From positions 1-52,784 of the IMG/VR virus record IMGVR_UViG_3300024258_000612: 52,784 bases of DNA; one strand, 5' to 3'. The notes below the pieces were generated by a model, which was not told where the DNA came from, did not search any database, and was given only the letters and a program-made list of their open reading frames with translations. Origin of the DNA: a virus. Below, piece after piece: positions 20,949 through 42,748 of the stretch (its first letter is position 1; each line of letters opens with the position of its first letter). Both the position numbers and the translations under genes were made by a program.

Positions 20949-21728
20949 ATGAGTAAAACAATAAGAAAAAAGAACTACCCACTTGACACGATTGGAATTA
21001 TCGGATACGGTATGGTGGGTAAGGCCGTGGAGTACGGGTTCCCAAACTGTAAACATTTAATATCGGATCCGGCGTATAACAATACGTCTGCTACCGATGT
21101 ATGCAACGGTAGACCTTCAGTTATTTTTATTGCTGTTCCTACCCTTACCGATGACAAAGGTAAGATCGAACATCAGATATTAGATAATACTTTAGATGAG
21201 GTGGAAGCCTCTGGTTACACGGGTTTAGTAGTAGTTAAGTCAACTATTCTACCACACTTCCTAGAAAATAGGGGCATAGTATATAACCCAGAGTTTTTAT
21301 CTAGAGCCACTTCCTTTAACGATTTCGTAAACCCTCCTATGTTAATTCTAGGAGGCGACCGTTCTAAAGAAGTGTTGGATCTGTACAAACTTAATTCTAA
21401 TGTACTAACGGATAAAGTATTTTTAACGGATGTTAAGACTGCTGCATTTGCAAAGTATGCTATGAACACTTTCTATGCTACTAAGATTACGTTTATGAAT
21501 GAGCTGTACCACGCTTTTGATGGAGACTGGGAAGAGTTAACGAGTATCTTAAAGGAGCACCCTTGGATGGGATCTCATCACTTTGAGGTACCTGGGCCTG
21601 ATGGAAGCTTCGGCTTTGGAGGCCCTTGCTTTCCTAAAGACACTAAAGCGCTGGCTACGGAATATAACATGGAATTATTAAATAAGGTACTAGAGTTAAA
21701 TGATAAGTATACTAATATTAACACATAA
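20949..21728 (+). CDS. UDP-glucose/GDP-mannose dehydrogenase-like protein (short form)
   Basis: A 259-residue NAD-dependent nucleotide-sugar dehydrogenase. It has the Rossmann motif GYGMVG at 19-24, K169 and N173 in AKYAMN, and the catalytic Cys C227 in GFGGPCFPKDT. Full-length enzymes (about 390-450 residues) have a C-terminal UDP-binding domain that is absent here. It therefore either works on a different nucleotide sugar, pairs with another protein, or is a diverged oxidoreductase. The substrate is unknown. It opens the sugar/radical-SAM operon and its end overlaps the next gene by 29 bases. Confidence 0.82.
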   Translation: MSKTIRKKNYPLDTIGIIGYGMVGKAVEYGFPNCKHLISDPAYNNTSATDVCNGRPSVIFIAVPTLTDDKGKIEHQILDNTLDEVEASGYTGLVVVKSTILPHFLENRGIVYNPEFLSRATSFNDFVNPPMLILGGDRSKEVLDLYKLNSNVLTDKVFLTDVKTAAFAKYAMNTFYATKITFMNELYHAFDGDWEELTSILKEHPWMGSHHFEVPGPDGSFGFGGPCFPKDTKALATEYNMELLNKVLELNDKYTNINT

Positions 21729-23160
21729 TAGGCCCAAACTATTCACAAGAGCAATACGAAGTATTCTAGACAACTTACCGGAGTACCCTGTAGAGATACT
21801 AGTGAATAACGACTCGAAAGACATAGAGGAAATAGAGGGGGCGACTTACTACTACGAGAAGCATGAGGACTTGTCGGATACGTATAAGTTCCTCTTAGAC
21901 AAAGCTACTCAAGAGCACGTATACTTCTTAGAGGACGACGACTATATAACCCCTAAGTTCTTCCACAAAATAGACTTTAGTTATAATATTAACTTCCTAA
22001 ACTATAGGCATGAAGACATTAATGAGTGTATAGATAGGTCTAAAAGAGAGTTTGCAGTAGAGGAGGAAGACTTCCAACTAGGGCAAATAATGTTTAAAAA
22101 GTCTTTAGTAAAAGAATTTCCTAAAGGTAATAATTTGGAGAACGATTGGGCACTGTTCCAATCTTTAGACCAGAGTAGTATGAAACTAATAAAAGACATA
22201 ACGTGGGTTCAGACTACTGATGGGAAAGATAATTTAAGTTTTCCTTCCTTAAATAAGGACACACGGTTCTTAGATGTAGTATCTAGTGGTAGTAGAGACT
22301 TTAGTACCTTATACTTTTCTTGGTTCTTAACCAGTTGGTGTAATTATAGTTGTTCCTATTGTTCCGTGGCCAGGGTATTGGACGACACACTTGACAAAAC
22401 CACAGCCTATAGCAGCTATGAACTAGTCATAAGGAAGCTACGTTTCGTAGAGAGCCCCTTTGTAATTGAGCTGCTAGGAGGGGAGCCTTCCATACATAAA
22501 GACATACTTAAGATACTTAAGATGCTTAATAATATAAGTAGCTGTAAACAGATTGAGTTTATAACAAACTTGTCGAGGTCCTACGAATTTTATGCTAAGC
22601 TAGACAGCGAGGAGTATGATAAAGTTGAGCTAACTGCCTCTTACCATTATGAGCATCATACCCCCCACTTTAATGAGAAGTTACTTAAATTAAGTAAGCT
22701 AAAGGGTATAACTTTATCTGTAAGTGTAAATCTGCCTACAAACCCTAAGTACTGGGGGGAAACGAAGAAGCTAATAGACTTCCTAGAAGAGCATGACATC
22801 TTTATAATGATCAACTTTCTACATAGCACACTAGATTGGTCCTCTAATTACTCTTCTGAATTCTTTAAGCAGTTTAAGGAGTATTTTGAGGAAGAGAAAA
22901 TTGAGTTTGTATTCAAAGACGGGTCTAAAAGTTACTTGTACGAGGACGAGGTTATAGAGAAAAAGCTGAATAGATTTAAGGGGTATAACTGTATGTCTTT
23001 GTCTTATGATATCTACAAGGACGGGTCTATTAGACGCTCTTGTAATAATGATTTAATAAATCTAACTATGACTAACCTAAGGGAGCGTATAACCTGCCCA
23101 GTAGATACCTGTGACTGCTACACCCTACTGCAGTTCCATAAAGAGAGACCTAACCCATGA
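21700..23160 (+). CDS. Glycosyltransferase (GT2-like) fused to radical SAM domain
   Basis: A 486-residue protein with two unlike halves. Residues 1-160 look like a family 2 glycosyltransferase fold: ISILILTHNRP at the N-terminus and a metal-binding EDDDY at 78-82. From about 200 the protein is a radical-SAM enzyme: C214, C218 and C221 form CNYSCSYC, and LLGGEPS supplies the SAM contact. Further Cys at 431, 448, 466, 471 and 473 (last in CPVDTCDC) could hold a SPASM-like auxiliary Fe-S cluster. The C-terminal pattern matches that of the next protein, so the two are paralogs. The reaction is unknown. The start ATG 21700 lies within the previous gene. Confidence 0.8.
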   Translation: MISILILTHNRPKLFTRAIRSILDNLPEYPVEILVNNDSKDIEEIEGATYYYEKHEDLSDTYKFLLDKATQEHVYFLEDDDYITPKFFHKIDFSYNINFLNYRHEDINECIDRSKREFAVEEEDFQLGQIMFKKSLVKEFPKGNNLENDWALFQSLDQSSMKLIKDITWVQTTDGKDNLSFPSLNKDTRFLDVVSSGSRDFSTLYFSWFLTSWCNYSCSYCSVARVLDDTLDKTTAYSSYELVIRKLRFVESPFVIELLGGEPSIHKDILKILKMLNNISSCKQIEFITNLSRSYEFYAKLDSEEYDKVELTASYHYEHHTPHFNEKLLKLSKLKGITLSVSVNLPTNPKYWGETKKLIDFLEEHDIFIMINFLHSTLDWSSNYSSEFFKQFKEYFEEEKIEFVFKDGSKSYLYEDEVIEKKLNRFKGYNCMSLSYDIYKDGSIRRSCNNDLINLTMTNLRERITCPVDTCDCYTLLQFHKERPNP

Positions 23161-24098
23161 AAAAGCAATATGATGAGGCCCATAAAATACAAAGGCTGTA
23201 TATACATTGGGATGTAAGTACCCAATGTAGTCTTAAGTGTAGCTATTGCTACGCTTGGAAACAGTATGGGAAAGACTGGGGTAAACTTGCGGGATGGGCG
23301 TCTCAACAATTAGTAATACACGCACTAAGCAGAGCCTCCCTACCTATATTCCTAGGACTATTAGGAGGAGAGCCCACCGACCACCCTAAGTATCTAGAGT
23401 TGCTAGAAAAGGTAAGTACCGTTATTTCTAAGCATAAGGATAGTAGGTTATATATAACTACCAATGGTCTACAAGATAGGGACTTCTTTGAGGGACACCC
23501 TGTATACCCTAATACATACTTTCTATTTAGCTTTCATCCAGAGTATGAGAGTAAGTATGGGGAGGGGTTCAGTTTACTACTAGACAACATCAGAACCATA
23601 CAGGAAAAAGGTTTTAGAGTTAAAGTTAATGTGATGCTTCACCATAGAAAATTCTTTTGGAAAAAAACACAGACATTCGTAGATAAGTTAGAAGAGATAG
23701 GAGACTTGGAAATTCACCCCCATTTTCTGTACGAAGACGGAGATGTGCACAGCCTAGAAAGCTACACAGAAGGGTTCTTTGAGGAGTTTCGCAGATTTAA
23801 GAAATATCCTGGGTACTTAGTTTATGAAGATGAAGAAGGGGCTACCAAAGAAGTGCTTAATGACTATGAGGTTTTCTCTCAGGACAGAACAGACTTTAAA
23901 GGTTGGACTTGTTGGAATAACAATTATGAAATATCCTGGGAAGGTAAAGTTGCTAGGTTTTGTTTTGAGGAACACGCTGATCTAATTACTAACGTGAACT
24001 ACTTTAAAAATATAGAGTCTGTAATACCTAAAACATGTCCACACACCTCTTGCAACTGTGACGGGTTACTAAAAATATATAAAGAGAAACTAGAATGA
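23157..24098 (+). CDS. Radical SAM protein with SPASM-like C-terminus
   Basis: A 313-residue enzyme. The 4Fe-4S motif is C24, C28 and C31 (CSLKCSYC); LLGGEPTDHP is the SAM-binding loop. The C-terminal part has DFKGWTC, FCFEEH and CPHTSCNC, the same order of Cys as the end of the preceding fusion protein. It probably arose by duplication of the radical-SAM half. The start overlaps the previous stop as ATGA. The substrate is unknown; peptide and sugar roles are both compatible with the family. Confidence 0.85.
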   Translation: MKKQYDEAHKIQRLYIHWDVSTQCSLKCSYCYAWKQYGKDWGKLAGWASQQLVIHALSRASLPIFLGLLGGEPTDHPKYLELLEKVSTVISKHKDSRLYITTNGLQDRDFFEGHPVYPNTYFLFSFHPEYESKYGEGFSLLLDNIRTIQEKGFRVKVNVMLHHRKFFWKKTQTFVDKLEEIGDLEIHPHFLYEDGDVHSLESYTEGFFEEFRRFKKYPGYLVYEDEEGATKEVLNDYEVFSQDRTDFKGWTCWNNNYEISWEGKVARFCFEEHADLITNVNYFKNIESVIPKTCPHTSCNCDGLLKIYKEKLE

Positions 24099-25111
24099 TA
24101 ACAACAGCACAGAAAGGAACTATAAAGCCCTATCATACTTTCGAAGTAGTCAACCAACTAGAGTCCCCCGGAGTAGATGCCGACTATATGGTATTCTGGC
24201 GCATAACAGAGTCATGTAATTTAGATTGCGACTATTGTCATTGGTATGATAAAGGCGCTGCCCCCGAGACCTTTCAAGATCTAAAGACTATTGTTGATGA
24301 ACTATTCGAGTTCTTTAAGCATGAAAACATTAATAGTGTTTTATTCTACTACCATGGAGGCGAGCCGACTAGAATCTCGTTCCTAGATAAAATCATAGAC
24401 TACATAACTGAAACAGGAATAAAGCAGGGGTTGAAGATATTTAACGAACTTCAAACTAATCTAATATGTAATCAAAAGACTATAGCCAACTTGATACCCA
24501 AGGTAGACTTGTTAAATATATCTCCGCATTATTCACAATACATTGGCAAGCCTCAGCTTAAAGATGTATTTGAGAAGAACATGAAGTACATAATGGATAA
24601 CAATATATCAATACATAACTTTGATATTATGCTGGAAGACCTTAGTGAAGAGCACACTAAAAAGTTTAAAGTTTGGATATCAAAGTACCTCAAGTACGAG
24701 CACCTAATCAACTCTGAAATGATTTATAACTACTGGCGGGTAGATAATAACGCAGAGTTAAAAGACATATATAAAGAGTTCTATGATGAGTTCAATATTA
24801 CTAGGCAAACCTACCGGGTGGACGGGGTACTATACGATACTAATGAATTATTTGGTAAAGGACTAAATGCCGTGGGTATGAGGTGCGAGGCAGGTCAAAA
24901 GAGTATTATGTTACTTGGGAGCGGCAATGTATTTGTATGTGGTAGACCTATGACGGACTTTCTAAATAAGTTACCAGACTCTGACCCCTATACTAATATA
25001 CTAACGGATAAGCACGCTAAAACGAAGTTATCAGTGCTTTACAAATTTGGTACGGTATGTGATAGTGACGAGTGTGGGGGAGAGTATTACCTAAAGAAGG
25101 TTATAACATGA
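24095..25111 (+). CDS. Radical SAM protein, third of the plus-strand set
   Basis: A 338-residue protein with C41, C45 and C48 (CNLDCDYC) and YHGGEPT as SAM-binding signature. The C-terminal Cys set is distinct from the other two: RCEAGQKSIM, FVCGRPM and CDSDECGG. The spacing CEAGQ then about 15 residues then C resembles the SPASM start seen in peptide-modifying maturases. It overlaps both neighbours by 4 bases (ATGA). Three consecutive radical-SAM genes suggest either sequential steps or multiple substrates. Confidence 0.85.
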   Translation: MITTAQKGTIKPYHTFEVVNQLESPGVDADYMVFWRITESCNLDCDYCHWYDKGAAPETFQDLKTIVDELFEFFKHENINSVLFYYHGGEPTRISFLDKIIDYITETGIKQGLKIFNELQTNLICNQKTIANLIPKVDLLNISPHYSQYIGKPQLKDVFEKNMKYIMDNNISIHNFDIMLEDLSEEHTKKFKVWISKYLKYEHLINSEMIYNYWRVDNNAELKDIYKEFYDEFNITRQTYRVDGVLYDTNELFGKGLNAVGMRCEAGQKSIMLLGSGNVFVCGRPMTDFLNKLPDSDPYTNILTDKHAKTKLSVLYKFGTVCDSDECGGEYYLKKVIT

Positions 25112-30767: not shown

Positions 30768-31376
30768 TTAACTACCTATACTAAAGAATTGGGTTCTTAA
30801 AGTCTCGACTTCCTCTTCAGTCTCTGAGGCAAGTACCGCTGTTTTAAAAATTTTATACTGCTCCCATAGGAATCTTTTAGCGGATAGTTGGTCCTTAGCC
30901 TCTAAATACTCTTCCAGTTGTTGGATTAATGCAGTGTTACCTGTATTAAGAATAGCCAAGTAGTTCTCCTCCCTATTAGCATCGGTGATATTATACCCAG
31001 CATCTTGCAACACGTTATTACCCTCCATATAGTTGAATAAAACGACTACGTTAAGAGTAGTAAACCTTTGATACATTCTTGTGCGTGCGGAAGATATAGC
31101 ACTATTGCGCACCCTCTCTATTCCCTCGGTGCTTTCTGTAATTTGCAGGTCTCCAGGTTGCAACTCTGGGCCACTTAAGTCCGTAGACTTAGGTATTACC
31201 ACGGTATGTCCGTCCTCTAACATTTGTTGCAAGATATCTGCCGTTACTGCAGATAGTCTCATATAAAAACCTCCTGCAGTATCTAAAAATTGAGTGTCGC
31301 TTACTACAACACCCGTCAACTGCCACTCTGTGCCAATATCTTCTATACTAGCTACTTCATATACTCTACTTGCCAT
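30768..31376 (-). CDS. Hypothetical protein downstream of the Cys-rich tail protein
   Basis: A 202-residue protein. The first 95 residues are probably beta-rich, and the rest is helical and charged (EEYLEAKDQLSAKRFLWEQY). Its start overlaps the end of the Cys-rich tail gene by 11 bases, so expression is coupled to it. There is no signal peptide, membrane segment or catalytic motif. It is a candidate virion structural or chaperone protein by position. Confidence 0.5.
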   Translation of the reverse strand: MASRVYEVASIEDIGTEWQLTGVVVSDTQFLDTAGGFYMRLSAVTADILQQMLEDGHTVVIPKSTDLSGPELQPGDLQITESTEGIERVRNSAISSARTRMYQRFTTLNVVVLFNYMEGNNVLQDAGYNITDANREENYLAILNTGNTALIQQLEEYLEAKDQLSAKRFLWEQYKIFKTAVLASETEEEVETLRTQFFSIGS

Positions 31377-32190
31377 TGTTTAGTTTCTCCGATAATTCTT
31401 TTACTGCGTTTATTAAAATTGGTACAAGCTCTATATAGCTAACCATTAATTTACCATTTTTGTCCTCTGATACTAAGACGTCATCATTTAATTCTTGGGC
31501 CATAACACCGTAGTGCTTAGCCTCTTTGTCCCACAGGTATTGGAACTTATATGTATCAATATTATTAAGGTAATCTAGTCCTAAATTTAAAGGTTCTATA
31601 TCTCTTTTGAGGGTAATATCACTATAATTACATCTACAGTCTGTGTTACAGGTACATACAGAGTTACAGGCACAATCTGAGTTACAAATACAGTCCCCTT
31701 CTAGTGCTCTGATTCTGTTCCTCAGAGAAGTTACTACTGAAGCAGCAACAGCCGTCCCGTCCCCGGGTATCCCAGTGTTGCCTCCCATCCTGTTTAAGGC
31801 AGAGTTCACATTAGAGAAGTGGGCGTTGTCTATAGCAGATCCGGCGCTTACATTAGAGCCCGGCACACTAGTAGTATACGAAAAGTCCTTATGAGTATTC
31901 CTACTAGTGAGTTCCTCAGATATAGCAGTTCTTAACTGATTTACGTGATAGTCTCTAATAGACCACCCAGCTGCAAGGCTTCCATCTGAAAACCCTGTCT
32001 TATTTCCTGTGCAGGTACTTCTATGCCCTGCACAAGATGCTAGCCCTACAGGTACGCCTTCAGTATGTGCACTACAAATACCCGTACTTTCCCCTTCTGT
32101 AGCCCCTGAATAATTGTATGTAACAGTTGAACCTTGCGCATTAGTGTACGTGAAGCTCTGCCCTGAGGTTAAAGTCTTAGTATACGCCAT
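31366..32190 (-). CDS. Tail protein with CxCN hexapeptide repeats and S74-type chaperone domain
   Basis: A 274-residue tail-fibre-type protein. Residues 1-165 are Ser/Thr/Gly-rich, with scattered Cys (39, 53, 60). Residues 167-190 are four exact-period repeats, CICNSD-CACNSV-CTCNTD and CRCNYS, with eight Cys at 167/169, 173/175, 179/181 and 185/187. Immediately after comes SDITLKRDIEPL and YGVMAQEL, the S74-peptidase intramolecular chaperone that trimerises fibres and then cleaves itself off just before or around this site. The gene overlaps the upstream SPASM radical-SAM gene by 14 bases. Such regularly spaced Cys may be metal ligands, disulfide staples or a substrate for the neighbouring enzyme. 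Confidence 0.82.
   Translation of the reverse strand: MAYTKTLTSGQSFTYTNAQGSTVTYNYSGATEGESTGICSAHTEGVPVGLASCAGHRSTCTGNKTGFSDGSLAAGWSIRDYHVNQLRTAISEELTSRNTHKDFSYTTSVPGSNVSAGSAIDNAHFSNVNSALNRMGGNTGIPGDGTAVAASVVTSLRNRIRALEGDCICNSDCACNSVCTCNTDCRCNYSDITLKRDIEPLNLGLDYLNNIDTYKFQYLWDKEAKHYGVMAQELNDDVLVSEDKNGKLMVSYIELVPILINAVKELSEKLNNGK
31621..31692 (-). repeat. Four tandem hexapeptide repeats CxCN[ST/Y]x
   Basis: Codons for residues 167-190 of the tail protein. The period is 18 bases, four copies, each C-x-C-N-(S,T,Y)-x. The codons vary between copies (for example TGT and TGC), so selection is at protein level and not recent slippage. Confidence 0.9.
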
Positions 32191-33325
32191 TATTACTCCT
32201 TTCTATCAATAGTTCCTGAAAGGCTCTATCTACTTTTCCAAAATACTGGAAGTATGAACACATTTGTGGTTGGTTGGTATCATCGTACCATCTATCTTCT
32301 AAAGACATCTTCTTACTTATTTGTGATTTAAGAGCAGGGCACTTAACACAGGTTGTGGCTGGACAAGTTATACAAGGGTCTGGAGTTGTATAGTCGTGAT
32401 TTATTAAATTGCCTTTAAATACTTCCAACTTACTAAAGAACTCCTCATTAGAGTCCTCAATGTTTGCTAAGTGCAGCTCTTCCCTGTTTTCTTGATAGAT
32501 AACACCATGACATGCCAGCACATCCCCTTCTACAGTTATAGCTGTAATGCTCTGCCCTGCAGCACACTGAGATCCTTTAACACCCCCATACCAGCTAAAT
32601 AAAGTATGGCCATTCTTTTCAGAGAAGGCGAGCTCCTTCTTAGTTAGGGCAACAATCTTGCTCTTATACATTTCCATATAAGCGTGTTGGTCACTATCAT
32701 CATAGTAGTCTATAGTAGGGGAATAAGCCAGCTGTAACCCTTTCTCTTTAAACTTATAGTACAGGTCCTCGTAGTCGTCCCATATATCTTCGAGGTGTAC
32801 AAAGTACTCAGGAACTAAAGTAGCTTTTAGGTGCAAATTAATATTAGGTATCTCTAGTAGCTTAAGTATGTTATCTCTAACTCTTTGAGTACTGTCCTTG
32901 CCAGTTATCGTCAATCTGAGAGGGTCTGGCATTAATCCATCATAGGACACTTGTATCTGAACCCTTTCATCTAACATATCTCTTAACTCTCTAAGGTCAT
33001 ACCCATTAGTATACATGTGATACTTTACAGGGTGCCCTTTAAACTCCTCTAAGAACTCTTTTATTAAAGGCTTATTTAGGGTAGGCTCTCCTCCCCAGAA
33101 GTCAATCTTAACACCTCCATACTCCCCTAAGTTTTTTAACTTGTGGTGTATCTTCTCTTTAGTCAGCTTTATCTGTTCTGGGGTTAGTAGTGTCTCATTG
33201 AGCTTATAATTTTCGTCGGGGTTATCTCCACAGCCTTCAAAGCAGTATGAGCACCCTAAGTTGCACTGCTGAGTTGTGGTTATCTCGAATGTGTAATATC
33301 TTTTTACCGGGGTGTAGTCGTCCAT
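32177..33325 (-). CDS. SPASM-domain radical SAM enzyme (peptide-maturase type)
   Basis: A 382-residue enzyme with C21, C25 and C28 (CNLGCSYC) in the N-terminal barrel, the SAM loop FWGGEPTLN and a C-terminal SPASM domain: CAAGQSITAITVEGDVLAC, then CITCPATTC, CVKC and a later CSYFQYF. SPASM enzymes bind two auxiliary clusters and modify peptides, for example in thioether or other RiPP cross-links. Unlike the three plus-strand enzymes, this one has the full SPASM pattern. It overlaps the CxCN-repeat tail protein by 14 bases downstream, so its likely partner is that protein. The direct evidence is domain content and coupling only. Confidence 0.87.
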   Translation of the reverse strand: MDDYTPVKRYYTFEITTTQQCNLGCSYCFEGCGDNPDENYKLNETLLTPEQIKLTKEKIHHKLKNLGEYGGVKIDFWGGEPTLNKPLIKEFLEEFKGHPVKYHMYTNGYDLRELRDMLDERVQIQVSYDGLMPDPLRLTITGKDSTQRVRDNILKLLEIPNINLHLKATLVPEYFVHLEDIWDDYEDLYYKFKEKGLQLAYSPTIDYYDDSDQHAYMEMYKSKIVALTKKELAFSEKNGHTLFSWYGGVKGSQCAAGQSITAITVEGDVLACHGVIYQENREELHLANIEDSNEEFFSKLEVFKGNLINHDYTTPDPCITCPATTCVKCPALKSQISKKMSLEDRWYDDTNQPQMCSYFQYFGKVDRAFQELLIERSNNGVY

Positions 33326-33522
33326 TATGTCATTAGTAGTTGTTTAAATTGGTTCTTCTCTTCTTCAGGGAAGTACGCTTTATCTTCGGGGATAATAGAC
33401 ATAAAGTCTTGCGCTTGTATTAAGTACTCAGAAGAGAGCTCCAAGTCTATAGGCTCTAACTCTTTAGCTATATTGAAGAGGCTTTCCGCTACTCTAGCTA
33501 TTCTATCATATGACTCCGCCAC
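33325..33522 (-). CDS. Small helical protein before the SPASM enzyme
   Basis: A 65-residue acidic helical protein (MAESYDRIARVAESLFNIAK). Its stop and the next start share a base at 33325 and its start codon overlaps the previous stop at 33522, so it is part of one coupled string. It has no Cys or membrane segment. It could be a partner or scaffold of the SPASM enzyme, or an unrelated tail chaperone. No family is recognised. Confidence 0.5.
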   Translation of the reverse strand: MAESYDRIARVAESLFNIAKELEPIDLELSSEYLIQAQDFMSIIPEDKAYFPEEEKNQFKQLLMT

Positions 33523-41395: not shown

Positions 41396-42748
41396 TTACC
41401 CTTTAAATCTTTTTAATGAGTTGCTCGCTTTGTTTTTATCAATGTGACCTAGTCCTGCCAAAATCCAATTCCACAACATGACACCTGAACACCCAAAATA
41501 ATGCTCTAAAGTTAGGGCTGATGGAACAGATGTTTTGCTAATAGACAACATATATTTAACTGTTTTTGTCCAAGTATCTCCGCTATTCACATGCCTCCAA
41601 AACTCTGTGTCATCTCTACCACCTGTGTAATGTACTACAAGAAAATCTCTAATGTCATCGTACAACTTTATCATTTCTTTGTTATAGTGATTGATTCTAT
41701 ATTGATTACATGTTTCTTTCTTGGTTTCTTGTAAGTGTTCCATAACAAAAGACATTGCTTGGATGATAGTTGTATGTATAGATGTAGCTTCTAAAGGCTC
41801 TGCAAATGCGGCTGACAATCCTAAAGCTAGGCAGTTATTTTTCCATAAAACTTCTGAACGCCCTGAAGTGAACTTGAATTTTCTAAGAATTTCTACGTCA
41901 CCAAACTTTGCTCTCAATTCCTCTTCAGCTTTAGCATCTGTTATAAACTTAGAGGAGTAAACATAACCACACCCAAATCTTTCTGTAGTTGGTATTTTCC
42001 AACACCACCCTGAATCCATTGCGGTGGCAGTTGTAACAGGCTCATAGTCGTCTGTAAGTGGCATCTGAAATGCTATTGCGCTATCAACAGGTAAGTTTTT
42101 CTCGTAAGACTCCCACTGAATATCCATAGCCCCACACAATACCCTTTTAAACCCACTACAGTCTATAAAAAAATCACCTTCATGGGTGTTGTTGTCAGTA
42201 TCTAATAAACTTATAATTTCACCGTTATCAGTTTTAACCCCATAAATCTCAGCATCTATTACTTTAACACCTGCTTTTATAGCATGTTTTGCGAAAAATT
42301 CCCCAACTTTAAAAGCATCAAAGTGGTAGCTCACGTTAATAGGCTCTTTTGCTTCGTATTTCCTACCTATTTCAGATGCTAGATGGAATTTGTCACCATT
42401 TACTATTAGGTTCTCACAGAACTCTGTATCAGGGGATAATCCCGAAGTTGATGAGCCATCTAGTGGAGCAAAGTAAGAAGACCCGTCACCCGTCCAATTA
42501 ACGTGTTTTATGCCCATCTTTGGTGTTACGTTGCAATATTCTATAAACTCCTTTATGTCGATACCTATGTCAAACCATGTGCCCGATACAAAGTCATGCA
42601 ACATCTGTGTTGCCCCCTCACCCGCACCAACAATGCCTATCTTCTTAGACTCTATCAGAGTCACATTATGAGTTGAACCTTGGGTCTTTATAATAGACAA
42701 AGCCATTAGCCAACCCGCTGTTCCACCACCAACAATAACTATGTTCAT
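41396..42748 (-). CDS. Flavin-dependent halogenase (tryptophan-halogenase type)
   Basis: A 450-residue FAD enzyme. It has GGGTAGW at 7-13 for FAD binding, GIVGAGEG at 38-45, a conserved Lys near 77 (TPKMGIK) at the place of the catalytic lysine of PrnA, and the diagnostic WxWxIP motif WCWKIP at 248-253. Family members make halogenated Trp or other aromatics with a flavin hypohalous intermediate. A cyanophage halogenase, VirX1, is known. Here the gene sits inside the tail-fibre operon, four bases from its upstream neighbour, so the substrate may be a host metabolite or the fibre protein itself. Confidence 0.88.
   Translation of the reverse strand: MNIVIVGGGTAGWLMALSIIKTQGSTHNVTLIESKKIGIVGAGEGATQMLHDFVSGTWFDIGIDIKEFIEYCNVTPKMGIKHVNWTGDGSSYFAPLDGSSTSGLSPDTEFCENLIVNGDKFHLASEIGRKYEAKEPINVSYHFDAFKVGEFFAKHAIKAGVKVIDAEIYGVKTDNGEIISLLDTDNNTHEGDFFIDCSGFKRVLCGAMDIQWESYEKNLPVDSAIAFQMPLTDDYEPVTTATAMDSGWCWKIPTTERFGCGYVYSSKFITDAKAEEELRAKFGDVEILRKFKFTSGRSEVLWKNNCLALGLSAAFAEPLEATSIHTTIIQAMSFVMEHLQETKKETCNQYRINHYNKEMIKLYDDIRDFLVVHYTGGRDDTEFWRHVNSGDTWTKTVKYMLSISKTSVPSALTLEHYFGCSGVMLWNWILAGLGHIDKNKASNSLKRFKG

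Follow-up and report, generated by a model that had tools for sequence, protein, structure and literature searches.

Our analysis of a 52,784-nucleotide stretch of viral DNA (hereafter the window) suggests that it encodes a maturation cassette for a fibre-tip protein. On the minus strand, a gene for a radical-SAM/SPASM enzyme (positions 32177–33325; 382 aa) is followed directly by a gene for a protein with Cys-Asn repeats (31366–32190; 274 aa), and the pairing of such genes is well supported in the loci described below. In our model, the enzyme would act as a maturase on the CxCN repeats of the adjacent protein, probably before its trimer closes, and would cross-link the repeat Cys residues, most likely through thioethers (−2 Da per link) and possibly to Asn or Asp carbons. 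The S74 domain would then trimerise the protein and release itself by a cut before Ser190, so that the mature protein, a small tail appendage probably in contact with the host, would end in the modified repeat. That the neighbouring Cys protein is the substrate of the enzyme we regard as very likely. The complete scheme, which includes the substrate, the chemistry, the sequence of steps, a place in the virion and host contact, we consider reasonably likely; it is placed lower because Cys cross-linking as the chemistry is less certain than the identity of the substrate.

The repeat consists of four hexapeptides at fixed spacing, CICNSD CACNSV CTCNTD CRCNYS (residues 167–190; positions 31621–31692, minus strand), which hold eight of the eleven Cys residues of the protein, the other three lying in its N-terminal part. 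The ORF translation thus bears out the four exactly spaced CxCN hexapeptides with eight Cys of the preliminary description, and the 14-base overlap that it noted between the Cys-protein and enzyme genes is indeed present (32177–32190). Two full CxCNxx repeats arose in none of 200,000 shuffles of the protein's own sequence. Among family members the N-terminal part is variable, and the repeat at the C-terminal end is the most conserved part. The PHROGs matches of the gene are tail proteins, and the gene closes a run of tail-fibre genes. An AlphaFold2 model of the protein has a mean pLDDT of 51.5 and is uninformative over the repeat (pLDDT about 35–40).

Immediately after the repeat lies an S74 self-cleaving chaperone domain (residues 190–274; positions 31369–31623, minus strand). 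The Pfam Peptidase_S74 match (PF13884, 2.6e-10; residues 190–235) begins on the final residue of the fourth repeat, and the domain carries the catalytic Ser (S190) with a Lys at +5 (K195), so that the repeat, earlier described as standing just before the S74 domain, ends exactly at the catalytic residue. The same region gives a weak profile match (E 0.036) to the neck appendage chain 3gud, starting from the first residue of 3gud. The S74 domain of T5 pb1 cuts before the catalytic Ser, with a Lys at Ser+5 (PMC4690869). Both proteins thus have a self-cleaving C-terminal chaperone with this Ser and Lys arrangement, whereas the sections available of the pb1 paper describe neither a Cys repeat nor a maturase. 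By the pb1 rule, the mature window protein would end ..CRCNY189. The repeat had been tentatively assigned to a fibre neck; the predicted cut would instead leave it at the C-terminal end of the mature product.

Relatives without an S74 domain have their stop codon after CNY, CNYS, CNYA, CNYG, CNYTA or CNYTQ, which is where S74 would cut. In many relatives the S74 domain is split: the Cys ORF closes with SDxRLKxxIxYM or a like sequence, and the remainder is encoded by the ORF that follows; in locus L154, where this was checked by profile, that remainder matches S74 profile positions 16–53. Apparent splits over two ORFs were seen in L135, L145, L149, L154, L222 and L235, the last of which has four tandem Cys proteins, several of which might be served by one chaperone half. 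In Achromobacter phage JWF, CNCDCNCNC is followed directly by a Hint domain. Therefore, a stop codon, S74 cleavage and, in JWF, Hint appear to be three ways of placing the repeat at the C-terminal end, and on the evidence of these sequences most of the mature proteins would end with the repeat. Exceptions are CP220, in which (CDCNYCT)n is internal (residues about 290–345 of 534), and a few other members that run past the repeat.

The enzyme matches PF04055 (7e-14), and among 12 homologues its core Cys residues C21, C25 and C28 (CX3CX2C), its GGEP motif, the seven Cys residues of the SPASM pattern (C254, C272, C318, C321, C326, C329 and C356) and G267 are invariant. The Cys pattern of the full SPASM domain proposed earlier is therefore present, although its CX2CX4CX2C spacing is not quite the usual one and the enzyme does not reach E 0.01 with the Pfam SPASM model. 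The nearest solved structure is CteB (6.6e-19, enzyme residues 15–336), with anSME among the further solved relatives (1.9e-11). The best NCBIfam match is the PapB model NF047865 (6.4e-19; 68.3 bits versus a cut-off of 340), followed by QhpD, TIGR03906 (1.6e-15; 57 bits versus 453), and the SCIFF maturase model TIGR03974 scores 48.1 bits versus 425; among the matches listed, the enzyme reaches none of the curated cut-offs. It also has no N-terminal RRE, as its radical-SAM core starts near residue 15, where the aligned part of CteB starts at 103. Because no curated cut-off is reached and the RRE is missing, we do not file the enzyme as a SCIFF or ranthipeptide member; of the ranthipeptide link drawn in the preliminary description, the resemblance to CteB and the PapB model holds, and the membership does not.

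The Aux I stretch of the enzyme reads CxxG..GxxxxCH as in CteB, without the additional Cys that anSME has there. In CteB, Aux I offers an open site to which a substrate Cys binds (PMC6231123), and PapB forms Cys-Asp thioethers with −2 Da per link, tolerating Cys-X0-6-Asp (PMC9413430). CteB and the SCIFF maturases (TIGR03974; PDB 5wgg, 5why) resemble the phage enzyme in combining radical-SAM and SPASM domains with a Cys-rich substrate encoded nearby, and the chemistry of CteB is thioether formation; unlike CteB, the phage enzyme lacks the RRE, and its proposed substrate is a long fibre-like protein rather than a short peptide. PapB also places several links within a repeat of Cys motifs (PMC9413430), although the PapA motif is CX3D and the constant motif in the phage proteins is CxCN. 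By analogy, the phage enzyme probably works like the CteB/PapB-type maturases. QhpD, the quinohemoprotein amine dehydrogenase maturase, puts Cys thioethers into a protein subunit and not into a free peptide; it can be likened to the phage enzyme, for which a protein target is proposed, but it is a cellular enzyme with an unrelated substrate.

In 10/10 viral loci found by a Cys-protein search, the enzyme gene lay directly upstream of the Cys-protein homologue. Since these loci had been found through the Cys protein itself, we performed a separate search by enzyme alignment alone, which did find homologues in viral contigs where a search with the single enzyme sequence had given no match. Family membership was set at a profile score of at least 150 bits and a length of at least 340 aa, with dereplication at 90% identity, yielding 42 members, made up of 30 from the enzyme-only search and others from the remaining loci. 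An automatic rule detected a Cys-dense ORF within 5 kb of the enzyme in 38 of the 42, or 40 when two degenerate repeats are counted. Among the 30 enzyme-only homologues, 26 pass this rule, or 28 including L135 and L149, whose degenerate repeats adjoining the enzyme were seen by eye (CVCNTDCGANLVCVCHGNCGNNY; CLCDGQCGLNYTCVCFENCGTNY). The other two are L148, a 34.7-kb record with the enzyme and no Cys repeat in the record, and L160, likewise without a repeat, which is an 8.6-kb fragment. The family looks viral, since a search of bacterial and archaeal genomes gave a single close relative, in a Bdellovibrionales MAG whose 52-kb contig has the pair.

Approaching from the repeat side, we searched with DNA patterns of the repeat and, after dereplication, retained 36 Cys-repeat proteins with enough flank. 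A radical-SAM gene lies within 3 kb of 33 of them; the records of the other three, each possibly a fragment, contain none. As controls we used the matches from one of the pattern searches that did not fall in a plausible Cys-repeat ORF, which were the majority in that search (89 loci, 735 kb); only one of the 89 has a radical-SAM gene, and this locus, L077, itself carries a CNCNC protein that the ORF filter had dropped. The nearest radical-SAM genes in the 33 positive cases are not all of the window enzyme's family: one hepta group has a different protein of ~290 aa closest, with a family member 2.7–3.6 kb off, and the CNCNC group has a radical-SAM protein of 490–502 aa that falls outside the family. 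For a 122-aa CNCNC protein, tblastn against the phage collection gave no match, an outcome for which the low-complexity filter may be responsible.

Hexapeptide versus hepta- or octapeptide repeat period maps to one change on the enzyme tree, in which a single clade (SH-aLRT 99) takes in all hexapeptide members, the two degenerate ones (L135, L149) and L148. This congruence fits enzyme–substrate specificity; co-inheritance or shared ancestry alone would also produce it. Across hexa, hepta, octa and CNC repeats no feature is as constant as Cys. The number of repeat Cys is seven or six in some hexa members (seven in L140 and L174), so that no fixed Cys pairing is implied. One viral locus (L032:3860-13343) shows a run of very Cys-rich proteins (27–75 Cys each) with CxCNSRT-like motifs, and at its edge an ORF that resembles a radical-SAM protein by its Cys motif.

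Enzyme and Cys-repeat pairs also occur in cultured phages, namely Campylobacter phages CP220, CP21 and IBB_35 and Achromobacter phage JWF. The Campylobacter phages encode a (CDCNYCT)n protein 2.2 kb from a family enzyme that is 30–32% identical to the window enzyme. The papers on the group II phages CP220, CPt10 and IBB_35 (PMC2853527, PMC3322345) thus deal with the same enzyme family and a nearby (CDCNYCT)n protein, and the 21-bp repeat inside the gene of this protein was noted there in 2010; in the sections available, however, the radical-SAM genes are treated as metabolic or host-fitness genes without connection to the repeat protein. CPT_0180, the repeat protein of CP220, is not among the virion gel bands that the figure legend names. 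The IBB_35 paper reports 38 virion proteins; the IBB_35 repeat protein is gene 3-9 by our count. In JWF, PJWF_00028 (L341:2760-4211) is a fibre protein whose Cys-Asn run adjoins a Hint domain of intein-like type, which seems to stand in for S74 as the cleaving part. The JWF fibre protein that closes with the repeat has a T4 gp36-like region in its annotation, and a radical-SAM gene annotated as a sulfatase-maturating enzyme lies two genes on. With co-occurrence in both directions (33/36 and 26/30), congruent evolution and similar pairs in unrelated phages that have other repeats and a different self-cleaving domain, the enzyme–substrate pairing suggested by the preliminary description is strongly supported. 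The refuting outcome that it named, Cys-repeat proteins mostly lacking an enzyme neighbour, did not hold in either direction of the search.

Two further genes on the minus strand flank the pair and are likely to encode accessory or assembly factors. Directly upstream of the enzyme gene, positions 33325–33522 encode a small helical protein of 65 aa, and most hexa cassettes have a helical ORF of 60–100 aa at the same place, often overlapping the enzyme start (loci of L133–L174). On the other side, positions 30768–31376 encode a conserved 202-aa protein (PHROG 25260) with a relative near 36/42 enzymes. Its AlphaFold2 model is fair (mean pLDDT 83.1), and a PDB fold search with this model gave no match (best E 0.13), so that a role as supplier of the missing RRE finds no support. 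Tail-fibre genes lie further upstream of the cassette in the window.

Several observations count against the cassette model as a whole: neither an RRE in the enzyme nor a PDB match of the 202-aa neighbour accounts for substrate recognition, the enzyme of L148 comes without a repeat, three repeat proteins have no radical-SAM gene in their possibly fragmentary records, the Cys number varies among hexa members, the repeat of CP220 is internal, and the congruence is explicable by shared ancestry. The enzyme might also act on the repeat protein with another outcome, such as conversion of Cys to formylglycine, epimerisation, or a C-C or ether cross-link without sulphur. Radical-SAM/SPASM enzymes are chemically diverse, anSME is among the solved relatives and the JWF enzyme carries a sulfatase-maturating annotation; we nevertheless judge such an outcome unlikely, given that the CxPxR sulfatase motif is absent from the CxCN repeats, the Aux I region is like that of CteB and not anSME, and Cys is what stays most constant across repeat types. 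Somewhat less probable still, in our view, is that the Cys residues bind a metal or Fe-S cluster at the tip or form interchain disulfide staples, with the enzyme serving another step or protein of the island. CxC motifs are commonly metal-binding, the window has four other radical-SAM genes as well as sugar genes, and the L148 enzyme adjoins such genes without a Cys protein. Metal binding or disulfides would, however, leave unexplained both the radical-SAM gene found with Cys repeats of different period in 33/36 cases and the one-change congruence, and the odd Cys numbers of L140 and L174 misfit simple within-chain disulfide pairing.

The pair could, on the other hand, yield a RiPP-like toxin or signal that the infected cell makes and that S74 or Hint cleavage sets free, with no part in the virion. 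The layout is precursor-like, with a variable N-terminal part and a conserved C-terminal repeat, and relatives of the enzyme mature secreted peptides. But what S74 cuts away is itself, at the C-terminal side; the repeat stays attached to the long N-terminal part, so that no short peptide is freed. The position of the gene at the end of a tail-fibre run, its PHROGs matches and the gp36-like fibre protein of JWF also speak for a structural protein, and we hold a released product to be very improbable.

More broadly, we lean, if only slightly, towards a widespread class of phages using radical-SAM maturases to cross-link Cys-Asn repeats at fibre tips. In the open-access literature searched, which takes in few subscription journals, there was no prior description of the pairing and no counterpart modification of virion proteins by radical chemistry. 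If correct, the model would give a function to phage radical-SAM genes that the Campylobacter phage papers call unusual and treat as metabolic, would make radical chemistry one of the means by which viruses harden or activate the tip that binds the host, and would provide peptide-stapling enzymes that lack a leader-binding domain. The chemistry itself would be of a known kind, a SPASM maturase acting on a Cys repeat, and the novelty would lie in the target, a fibre-tip protein that self-cleavage exposes. The cultured phages that carry the pair make the claim directly testable.

The replication genes of the window comprise a family A polymerase, a split NAD ligase and an SbcC-like subunit, a set that we take to recall T5-like phages. 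Besides the cassette enzyme, the window holds four radical-SAM genes together with sugar genes. Three of these radical-SAM genes lie in a row at positions 21700–25111, the first joined to a glycosyltransferase-2 domain, and adjoin transketolase-like, epimerase and PIG-L deacetylase genes. A tryptophan halogenase gene (PF04820, 3.1e-97; positions 41396–42748) stands among the tail-fibre genes and may encode another protein-modifying enzyme.
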